A stretch of DNA of 64,000 nucleotides. Source: Armatimonadota bacterium. Its GTDB lineage: Bacteria; Armatimonadota; Fimbriimonadia; Fimbriimonadales; Fimbriimonadaceae. Positions 36,126-38,311 of this stretch are shown here, in pieces (the stretch's first letter is position 1; each line of letters starts with the position of its first letter). Under the pieces are notes generated by a model. That model did no database searches, had not been told where the DNA came from, and saw nothing but the letters and a program-made list of their open reading frames with translations. Location: NCBI GenBank assembly GCA_016789105.1, contig JAEURN010000001.1, forward strand, positions 62,001-126,000. Reading direction: 5' to 3'. The position numbers and the translations under genes were made by a program.

Positions 36126-36183
36126 CATAGGGGGGGCGACAATGAACTTTTGGCCTGCACACGGCATAATAAAGGAAAGAGGC

Positions 36184-36552
36184 GTGACCCGAACCCACTT
36201 TTTGCTCCGCCTGGTTTTGGCCACCTGCTTGGCCCTGGGTCTTATCCCAGCCCAAGCTGTAGCGAACCTGTGCGCCTCGGCAAAGCCCGCTTGCCATGCC
36301 GCGGCAAGCTGCTGCGGGGCAAGCAAAAAGTGTGGGTGCAAAGTCGATTCGCACCCAAAGCAAGCGGCTCATGCCGACCTTGCCCCCGCCCCGCCCCCGC
36401 TGCAGGTGATTTCCATCCCCGAGCCGGCGGCCACCGTATTGAAGTCAGCCGGGATCCCACCCCCCATCCGGTTCCCTGAGCCCAAAGCCCATGCTCCACC
36501 GGGCCCATCCCGTTCCCCCGGCGCCCCCCGCGCCCCTCCGATTGACCTGTGA
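36184..36552 (+). CDS. Small secreted Cys-rich and Pro-rich protein
   Basis: 122 residues from GTG 36184 (an ATG at 36142 would place extra residues before the signal peptide). Signal peptide: RTHFLLRLVLATCLALGLIPAQA. The mature part begins with eight cysteines in ~30 residues, in C/CH...CC...C.C spacing (CHAAASCCGASKKCGCK), then a Pro/Ala-rich tail without structure. Cys spacing suggests metal binding or disulfides. It precedes the YHS-repeat protein by 30 bases, so a shared metal or sulfur role is inferred. I do not recognise a named family. Confidence 0.6.
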   Translation: MTRTHFLLRLVLATCLALGLIPAQAVANLCASAKPACHAAASCCGASKKCGCKVDSHPKQAAHADLAPAPPPLQVISIPEPAATVLKSAGIPPPIRFPEPKAHAPPGPSRSPGAPRAPPIDL

Positions 36553-36582: not shown

Positions 36583-37851
36583 ATGACGACCCAACAGGAC
36601 AATCAGATGAATTCAAAAACGCTTATTACCGCTTCACTGGCCTTGGCTGCACTTGGTGCCCTTGCCCAGTCCGACCAAAAACAAGAACTGGCCAGCCTCT
36701 CATGCCCAGTGCTGGGGAACCCAGTCTCGCCACAGAAAGACCTCTCGATCGAATACCGGGGACTTTCAATTTCGTTTTGCTGCCCGGGATGCGACGCCAA
36801 ATTCCTGGCCAACCCCGAGAAGTACTTGGAAGAAGCCTCCCATGACGGCAAGACCGTGGCAATCAGCCTGTTCGACCCGGTCAACCACAAACGGCTGGCC
36901 CTTGCCGATGCAGCGGCTACCCTGGACTTCCAGGGGATCCGGTACCCGTTTGCCACCGCGGCCGATGCCACGGAGTTCCGCTCTCTTCCCGGATCGTATG
37001 CCTACGCTCCCAGCCGGGAATCCGTGACCTGTCCGGTGATGAAGAAAACCGTCGAAAGCCACTCATCGGCGGCGGGATTTGCAGATTTCCGGGGGGTTCG
37101 CTACTATTTCTGCTGTCCCGGTTGCGACGAAGATTTTGCCAAGGATCCGGAAAAATTTGCGGCATCGGTTGCGGACAAGGTGCGGCCCGTGGCCGCCACG
37201 GCAGAAAAGGCCCATCCGCAATTGACTTTGGCGCCGACATGTGCCGGGTGTGCCGGTGAGGCGAGGCTTTTGAGCAATGGGGGGTTTGCCGGAAAATTCA
37301 CGGCGGCCTATCGGTTTGTGGCCATTGACGATGTCGCGGCCCGGCACCGGTTCACACTGGACTACGCTGTCACCCCCCGCCTCACCGTTGGAATCGAGCG
37401 CAGCGGTGGCGATGCGAGCCTTGCCCCAGTTCCCCGATTCCAAGACAACCCCGGCGACTTCCTCCGGTTTTCTGATGGCGACGCCCTGGTTATGCCGCGG
37501 TTCAGCTGGTTCGTCTCACCCGAAAAGGAGAACTGCCCGAGCTTCCTCGTCGGCATGGCCTCGGATCGGCTCAGCACGCCTCGCGGACAAGCCTTTTTTG
37601 CCACCGCCTCCAAGCACATCGCTGGAACCTCGGTCACGCCGTTCCTCAGCATAAAGACCAACACCTTCGATGGGCGGACGGTCATGCCCTTTGGAGTGAA
37701 TTACGCGTTGCCCGACAATTTCGTCCTGCAGGCGGTCAACGACGGCGACTACACGCACTTCTTGTTCACAAAAATGCTGGATCGGGCGTCGGTCAGCCTG
37801 TTGCTCGCCCGGAGCCGGTATTTCGGTTTCAGCGTCGCGGTGGGGTTTTAA
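36583..37851 (+). CDS. Exported protein with tandem YHS-like metal-binding repeats and a barrel-like C-terminal half
   Basis: 422 residues. After a signal peptide (MNSKTLITASLALAALGALA) comes YHS-like repeat 1 (SCPVLGNPVSP...FCCPGCDAKFLANPEKYL, ~34-80), a Cys-less repeat with the same spacing (ISLFDPVNHKRL...FQGIRYPF, ~90-140), and repeat 2 (CPVMKKTV...FCCPGCDEDFAKDPEKF, ~148-195). YHS modules bind heavy metals in P-type ATPases and related proteins. Residues ~215-422 contain TCAGCAGE and then alternating hydrophobic strands ending FSVAVGF, with a terminal Phe as in outer-membrane barrels. Start 36583 lies 6 bases after TGATAT; ATG 36607 with AGGA upstream is the alternative. Confidence 0.65.
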   Translation: MTTQQDNQMNSKTLITASLALAALGALAQSDQKQELASLSCPVLGNPVSPQKDLSIEYRGLSISFCCPGCDAKFLANPEKYLEEASHDGKTVAISLFDPVNHKRLALADAAATLDFQGIRYPFATAADATEFRSLPGSYAYAPSRESVTCPVMKKTVESHSSAAGFADFRGVRYYFCCPGCDEDFAKDPEKFAASVADKVRPVAATAEKAHPQLTLAPTCAGCAGEARLLSNGGFAGKFTAAYRFVAIDDVAARHRFTLDYAVTPRLTVGIERSGGDASLAPVPRFQDNPGDFLRFSDGDALVMPRFSWFVSPEKENCPSFLVGMASDRLSTPRGQAFFATASKHIAGTSVTPFLSIKTNTFDGRTVMPFGVNYALPDNFVLQAVNDGDYTHFLFTKMLDRASVSLLLARSRYFGFSVAVGF

Positions 37852-37855
37852 AGCC

Positions 37856-38311
37856 ATGGTTGCCGCAGCTCTGGTGCTCCTGGCCCAAGGCCAACTGGCC
37901 ACCCCTGCCCCGATGCCCGAACTCAACTTGAAAGACTTGCAAGGCAAGACATGGCGCAAAGAAGGGCTGGAACGAGACCGCGTCTATCTGGTCGAGTTCT
38001 GGGCAACCTGGTGCACAACGTGCCGGGCCATCCATCCGGAAGTCCAAAAGTTCGTCAAGTCTCAAGCCGAAGCCAAGTTCACCTACCTGGCAGTGAGCGT
38101 GGATGATGACCTTGGTGCCCTGCGCAAATGGGCAAAGGCCGAACAACCAGCCTATCCGGTTTTGATGGATCCCGATTTCGCCGCAATGGAGCGGTGGAAG
38201 GTGAAAGAGGTTCCCAGCCTGTTCTTTGTGCTCAACGGCAAGGTGTTGTGGCGGCACACGGGCTCTCTCAAATCGGCCGATTTGAATTCGGCCTTGGCAA
38301 AGATCAAATGA
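37856..38311 (+). CDS. TlpA/ResA-like exported thiol-disulfide redoxin
   Basis: 151 residues with a short signal-like N-terminus (MVAAALVLLAQGQLA). The thioredoxin fold has VEFWATWCTTCRAIHPE with active-site CTTC, and cis-Pro in VKEVPSLFFVLNGKV. This domain form usually reduces cytochrome c or metalloprotein thiols outside the cytoplasm. It starts 4 bases after the YHS-barrel gene, so it could keep the Cys-rich proteins reduced. The substrate is inferred from position only. Confidence 0.82.
   Translation: MVAAALVLLAQGQLATPAPMPELNLKDLQGKTWRKEGLERDRVYLVEFWATWCTTCRAIHPEVQKFVKSQAEAKFTYLAVSVDDDLGALRKWAKAEQPAYPVLMDPDFAAMERWKVKEVPSLFFVLNGKVLWRHTGSLKSADLNSALAKIK

Follow-up and report, generated by a model that had tools for sequence, protein, structure and literature searches.

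A triple-YHS protein fused to a probable outer-membrane barrel, the cysteine homologue of predicted selenoproteins in Armatimonadota

In the window, the whole stretch of 64,000 nucleotides of an Armatimonadota contig that was analysed, one gene joins three YHS repeats to a C-terminal half with barrel-like features. Comparison with relatives identifies this half as the cysteine version of a family of predicted selenoproteins, nested inside the selenocysteine (Sec, U) forms. The family, defined by PT-[U/C]-x-G-[U/C] followed by the barrel, is apparently undescribed when compared with NCBIfam and with a 2026 inventory of prokaryotic selenoproteins. As the barrel half is a Cys form of such a family, a relationship missed in the initial annotation, and a TlpA gene lies adjacent, redox chemistry is probably central to its function. 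The fusion, the Sec family and a YHS-TlpA partner found in relatives together suggest that a device driven by thiol/selenol chemistry handles metals at the cell surface.

Results

The fusion gene and its YHS repeats

The fusion ORF lies at 36583-37851 on the + strand and encodes 422 aa when alternative starts are included; the coordinates are those of the ORF list, as in the initial annotation. The likelier start, read from the sequence, is the ATG at 36607, which has AGGA ahead of it and a signal peptide after it. This peptide, MNSKTLITASLALAALGALA (36607-36666, +), ending ALGALA/QS, was also read from the sequence, and the N-termini of homologues are comparable. The YHS-like nature proposed for the repeats was borne out by Pfam, where PF04945 matched the protein in three stretches (E 4.6e-20; 71.8 bits, cut-off 30.3). 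Repeat 1 (residues 42-83; 36706-36831, +) has C41, C66, C67 and C70 in or around it, and repeat 3 (residues 148-194; 37024-37164, +), which also matches TRASH (PF24273), has C150, C177, C178 and C181. Both carry cysteines of the metal-ligand type. The degenerate middle repeat described earlier (about residues 98-140; 36874-37002, +) is indeed free of cysteine and matches PF04945 on its own with an E of 0.0067. Since unfused triple-YHS relatives share the cysteine-free repeat, it does not reflect decay of the window gene alone.

Repeats 1 and 3 share CPV...FCCPGC with the known YHS/TRASH domains (PF04945) of Cu-ATPases and of the adenylyl cyclase of Mycobacterium phlei (PMC4626032). The window repeats differ from these in being exported, in standing three in tandem with a conserved cysteine-free middle, and in their fusion to a barrel-like domain. 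NF041384, the YHS domain-containing (seleno)protein, likewise places YHS in a selenoprotein setting; there, Sec is in the YHS protein, whereas here it is in the barrel family. Membership of the fusion protein in NF041384 was rejected (25 bits, cut-off 70). With phmmer, the YHS part gave weak matches, which were judged to be due to chance.

The same fusion was found in eight genomes, which belong to three genera, with identities of about 46-62%, and an architecture that recurs in this way is not a chance one. Some part of the fusion protein is matched in 79 of the 85 genomes of the same bacterial family. The triple YHS exists alone (about 200-230 aa), with a longer C-terminal region (about 570 aa) or fused to the barrel, and the barrel half is also found by itself, with a signal peptide of its own. 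In the bacterial family, exported proteins of about 560-570 aa that combine the triple YHS with the long C-terminal region are common (L014, L020, L029, L121:11073-12755), and one protein of this type has a weak YtkA match. The window genome itself has a second, unfused triple-YHS gene (L049:12848-13615; G000:C2:242850-243398). A search of genome contigs returned a single archaeal YHS protein only.

The C-terminal half as a probable outer-membrane barrel

The second half (residues 217-422; 37231-37848, +), which is covered by a profile termed A1, is a probable outer-membrane barrel on the grounds of its C-terminal signature, strand alternation and length. The protein ends in VAVGF, and 56 of 65 relatives of this half likewise have Phe as their final residue. 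In these 65, the hydrophobic fraction at positions 0, -2, -4, -6 and -8 is 0.95, 0.75, 0.94, 0.95 and 0.63, against 0.09-0.18 at the positions in between. Over the whole domain, strand alternation amounts to 41 windows, while the maximum in 500 shuffles was 34. Stand-alone barrel relatives also begin with a signal peptide, as read from their sequences.

Alternatively, the C-terminal half could lie outside the membrane, as a secreted or periplasmic beta-rich domain with a CxxC/UxxU metal or redox site. Such a reading would agree with the searches, since the barrel-family matches in Pfam were all insignificant and the profile found no relative in the PDB, and with AlphaFold models made without an alignment, in which a closed barrel was absent at low pLDDT (34.5 for the window protein, 32.5 for the barrel half). 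The C-terminal Phe, the strictly alternating last strand and an alternation exceeding that of every shuffle argue against it, and we consider a non-membrane domain improbable. Of the barrel suggested in the initial annotation, the signal peptide, the C-terminal beta-signal and the alternating strands are present, whereas the closure of the barrel was not recovered in the single-sequence models (pLDDT 32-34) or by Pfam.

Membership in DUF5777 (PF19089), a membrane-bound beta barrel, was tried and rejected (13 bits, cut-off 23.1; E 0.06); the likeness is weak and confined to a short segment spanning two strands of the domain in the fusion protein. Viral contigs and plasmids yielded no barrel relatives. 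Near-invariant residues of the barrel are E226, R244, R256, E272, D328, R329, D387 and H392 (window numbering, set to agree with C220), and these are candidates for a functional interior.

The barrel family and its predicted selenocysteines

The YHS and barrel parts meet at APT-C220-AG-C223-AGEAR. The two cysteines of this junction (C220-A-G-C223; 37240-37251, +) are the key feature of the fusion protein, and both were absent from the motifs listed initially. Among 291 genomes of the phylum, profile A1 detected the barrel domain in 62, in most cases as a form that has two TGA codons. In stand-alone relatives, in-frame TGA codons stand exactly at the C220 and C223 sites, and for this reason those genes seemed truncated. 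These relatives read PT-TGA-AGC (three loci) or PT-TGA-TG-TGA-PGEG, and in the alignment the window pair is the cysteine counterpart of their U-x-x-U or U-x-x-C. When 65 loci were read through, the first 100 domain residues contained no TGA apart from those of the two motif positions (TGAs beyond these 100 residues were counted as stops). Neither TAA nor TAG was present within the barrel domain of the relatives, and the reading frame beyond the TGA is conserved across the families of the phylum.

Just after the motif, a SECIS-like hairpin can be drawn in which columns 27-33, counted from the first TGA, pair with columns 39-45. Pairing holds in 95.6% of cells, compared with 46-60% for slid versions, and changes on both sides number 36 against 10.4 in shuffles. 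Since single sequences fold little better than their shuffles, the case for the hairpin rests on this covariation. Within the bacterial family, SelB over its curated cut-off was found in 30 of the 32 genomes with a TGA barrel and in 18 of the 53 others (Fisher p 2e-8, with kinship ignored). The two TGA-barrel genomes lacking SelB are 68% and 75% complete.

The TGA codons could still be true stops and the family an artefact of decayed genes, as selenoprotein status is here predicted from DNA. This would leave unexplained the restriction of TGA to two sites in a domain where TAA and TAG never occur, the downstream frame kept throughout the phylum, the covarying hairpin and co-occurrence with SelB, and the cysteines that genomes lacking SelB have at this position. 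The true-stop reading is hardly credible, and a pseudogene interpretation of the TGA relatives was dropped on the evidence of frame, hairpin and SelB. The window protein is itself no candidate selenoprotein, its codons 220 and 223 both being TGT, and it is classed as a Cys homologue. Its genome encodes SelB as well as tRNA-Sec (the tRNA-Sec search covered the window genome only), and so the Cys form is not explained by loss of the machinery.

In NCBIfam, no significant match was obtained for any of the 19 barrel members tested, and no such family is among the 119 prokaryotic selenoprotein families of the 2026 inventory (PMC13188914). NF041115, the UxxU metal-binding (seleno)protein of HMA/MerP type, has in common a UxxU pair proposed for metals; its fold is different and no barrel member matches it. 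Sec in a predicted outer-membrane barrel is shared with GSU2204 of MtrB/PioB type (NF041027) and with the FCYXU TonB-dependent receptor (NF049945; PMC13188914). Those barrels are large and unrelated, whereas here Sec-x-x-Sec comes directly after the signal peptide of a small barrel. Further Sec/Cys swaps are seen at L105:7100-7654 and L136, whose motifs are mixed CxxU (PTCAGUPGEG and GCPGUPGEG).

A second barrel family with in-frame TGA

A second, distant barrel family came to light through weak matches of the barrel profile; it has CPLU after its signal peptide or, more rarely, UPLU, UPIU or UPVU. An in-frame TGA is present in about 30 loci. The family includes L138, L139, L142, L149, L101:9219-9755, L095:873-1397 and L152-L181, and searches of these barrels against Pfam and NCBIfam gave no match. 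Eight genomes without SelB over the cut-off have CPLC or CPIC instead. A triple-YHS gene adjoins three CPLU/UPLU loci on the same strand, in one case with a stop/start overlap (GTGA), and YHS-TlpA is found downstream of two. The association with triple YHS or YHS-TlpA thus recurs in a separate barrel family.

TlpA and other neighbours

A gene for a TlpA/ResA-like thioredoxin with the motif WATWCTTC (37856-38311, +) begins 4 nt past the stop of the fusion gene. Its product matches AhpC-TSA (PF00578; E 8.8e-17, 61.7 bits) and Thioredoxin (53 bits), both over the Pfam cut-offs, and also the ResA/DsbE models, where its scores are below the equivalog cut-offs of NCBIfam. It shares the fold profile and WATWCxxC with TlpA/ResA thioredoxins and is likely to be the reductant of a CxxC partner. 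From TlpA of Bradyrhizobium (PMC6696091), the relatives differ by an added N-terminal YHS and by the predicted partner, a UxxU/CxxC barrel.

In a profile search, such a YHS-TlpA protein (about 216 aa) was encoded directly downstream of 28 of 53 UxxU barrels; about half of these barrels have none adjoining. Downstream of the intact YHSx3-barrel fusions, six of seven, including that of the window, have a TlpA without YHS. YHS is thus carried either by the thioredoxin or by the barrel. This natural swap of a domain links all three parts, and YHS, TlpA and barrel appear from these arrangements to constitute one module.

Upstream of the fusion, a small exported Cys-rich protein with CC and CGC motifs is encoded at 36142-36552 (+), its true start probably lying further in. 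No match was obtained for it in Pfam or NCBIfam. Similar genes precede the fusion at three other loci (L033, L034, L035), and others are found near several other barrels and in the metal island described below.

Heavy-metal genes near relatives

At some loci, the barrel genes lie among genes for heavy-metal transport. A CopA-like ATPase and a RicR/CsoR-like repressor lie near one barrel (L042), and ArsR-like, TolC-like and CusA/CzcA genes near another (L132). A 13.3-kb heavy-metal island (L121 1-13288, the same as L122) is 99.94% identical between two genera and 95% identical to a copy in a third (L123), which indicates a recent horizontal transfer. Its cargo includes CusA/CzcA, ZntA-like and YHS-CopA-like ATPases, a UxxU barrel, YHS-TlpA and a triple-YHS protein. 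The island also encodes a 521-aa exported protein (L121:8497-10059) with no Pfam or NCBIfam match. In three genomes, an ArsR-family regulator with a CVC motif is located 102-236 nt upstream of a UxxU barrel on the same strand (L098:4230-4643, L099:3432-3818, L108:6146-6529), which hints at a metal(loid) signal.

Overall, heavy-metal genes flank a minority of the barrel loci. In the flanks of the window locus, inspected by eye, no metal genes were seen, and the ORFs resemble housekeeping genes of the nadC, birA, rpoD and dnaG types. The metal uptake, export or sensing device envisaged initially is therefore plausible from the heavy-metal transport genes beside some relatives, with nothing comparable seen beside the window gene. 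The co-occurrence with copper ATPase or CusA-like genes that had been proposed as a check divides in the same way, CopA-like and CusA/CzcA genes lying near some relatives and none having been seen around the fusion gene.

A channel for metal uptake or export, with the ion passing through the barrel and the YHS modules feeding or gating it, would fit the barrel-like signature and the RND and TolC-like genes adjoining at L132 and L121. However, a length of about 180 residues suits a barrel of roughly eight strands. Barrels of that size (OmpA/OmpX-type) normally have no open pore. RND and TolC-like genes are also missing beside the window gene, and a conducting channel seems rather improbable.

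Discussion

The initial annotation identified the modules correctly and proposed a plausible barrel, and is partly supported as a whole. The best explanation of the locus, held tentatively and at slightly under an even chance, is the capture or hand-off of a soft metal, perhaps copper, at the outer membrane, with TlpA keeping the CxxC/UxxU pair reduced. The C-terminal domain would form a small barrel of about eight strands with its dithiol or diselenol on the periplasmic side, and the YHS modules would bind the soft metal, most likely copper. With the pair held in the reduced state by TlpA, it could take a soft metal such as Cu(I) from the YHS modules or pass it to them, and the outcome at the outer membrane may be sequestration, detoxification or hand-off. 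A probable role in copper sensing has been reported for YHS (PMC4626032), and in Bradyrhizobium the copper chaperone ScoI and COX II are reduced by TlpA (PMC6696091); these reports favour a role in soft-metal capture or hand-off. That the relatives carry YHS on TlpA rather than on the barrel suggests that the parts act as one machine.

A UxxU pair is also compatible with a pure redox enzyme. The barrel could be an outer-membrane thiol/selenol oxidoreductase that reduces peroxide, methionine sulfoxide, selenite or another such oxidant with electrons from TlpA, the YHS part serving to regulate it or to guard it against metals. Two Sec residues in a UxxU pair with a dedicated thioredoxin partner, and the invariant E, R, D and H residues of the barrel, are in keeping with such an enzyme, and most selenoproteins with motifs of this kind are thought to be redox proteins (PMC13188914). 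The conservation of YHS both where TlpA carries it and where the barrel does, and the position of some loci among heavy-metal genes speak against it; an oxidoreductase is possible, if on the unlikely side. More speculative, and rather doubtful at present, is an outer-membrane selenol relay in which UxxU (here CxxC) at the barrel mouth, reduced by the YHS-thioredoxin, would move soft metals or electrons between the surface and periplasmic YHS carriers. If true, the relay would be a redox-driven outer-membrane metal machine of a kind not described, present in two parallel families (PTUxGU and CPLU).

The analysis adds two families of exported, predicted selenoproteins, both apparently undescribed, with Sec just before a probable outer-membrane barrel. 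Fusions and operon swaps tie both families to YHS metal modules and TlpA thioredoxins, and the window fusion is a natural link suggesting that the three parts act together. These proteins will be overlooked or cut short by gene finders that treat TGA as a stop codon. As the Cys form encoded in the window requires no Sec insertion, it can be produced in E. coli, which makes its function directly testable.

In the phylogeny of the barrel, the seven complete fused CxxC forms make up one clade (100/95) that is sister to three UxxC forms. When rooted with the distant CPLU barrels, an outgroup on a long branch, the CxxC and UxxC group falls inside the UxxU tree. A path from UxxU through UxxC to CxxC, accompanied by the fusion, is likely, read with the length of that outgroup branch in mind. 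In a distant family of the phylum, L127:3083-3646 together with an upstream part in the same frame encodes a degenerate YHS fused to a UxxU barrel, apparently an independent fusion.
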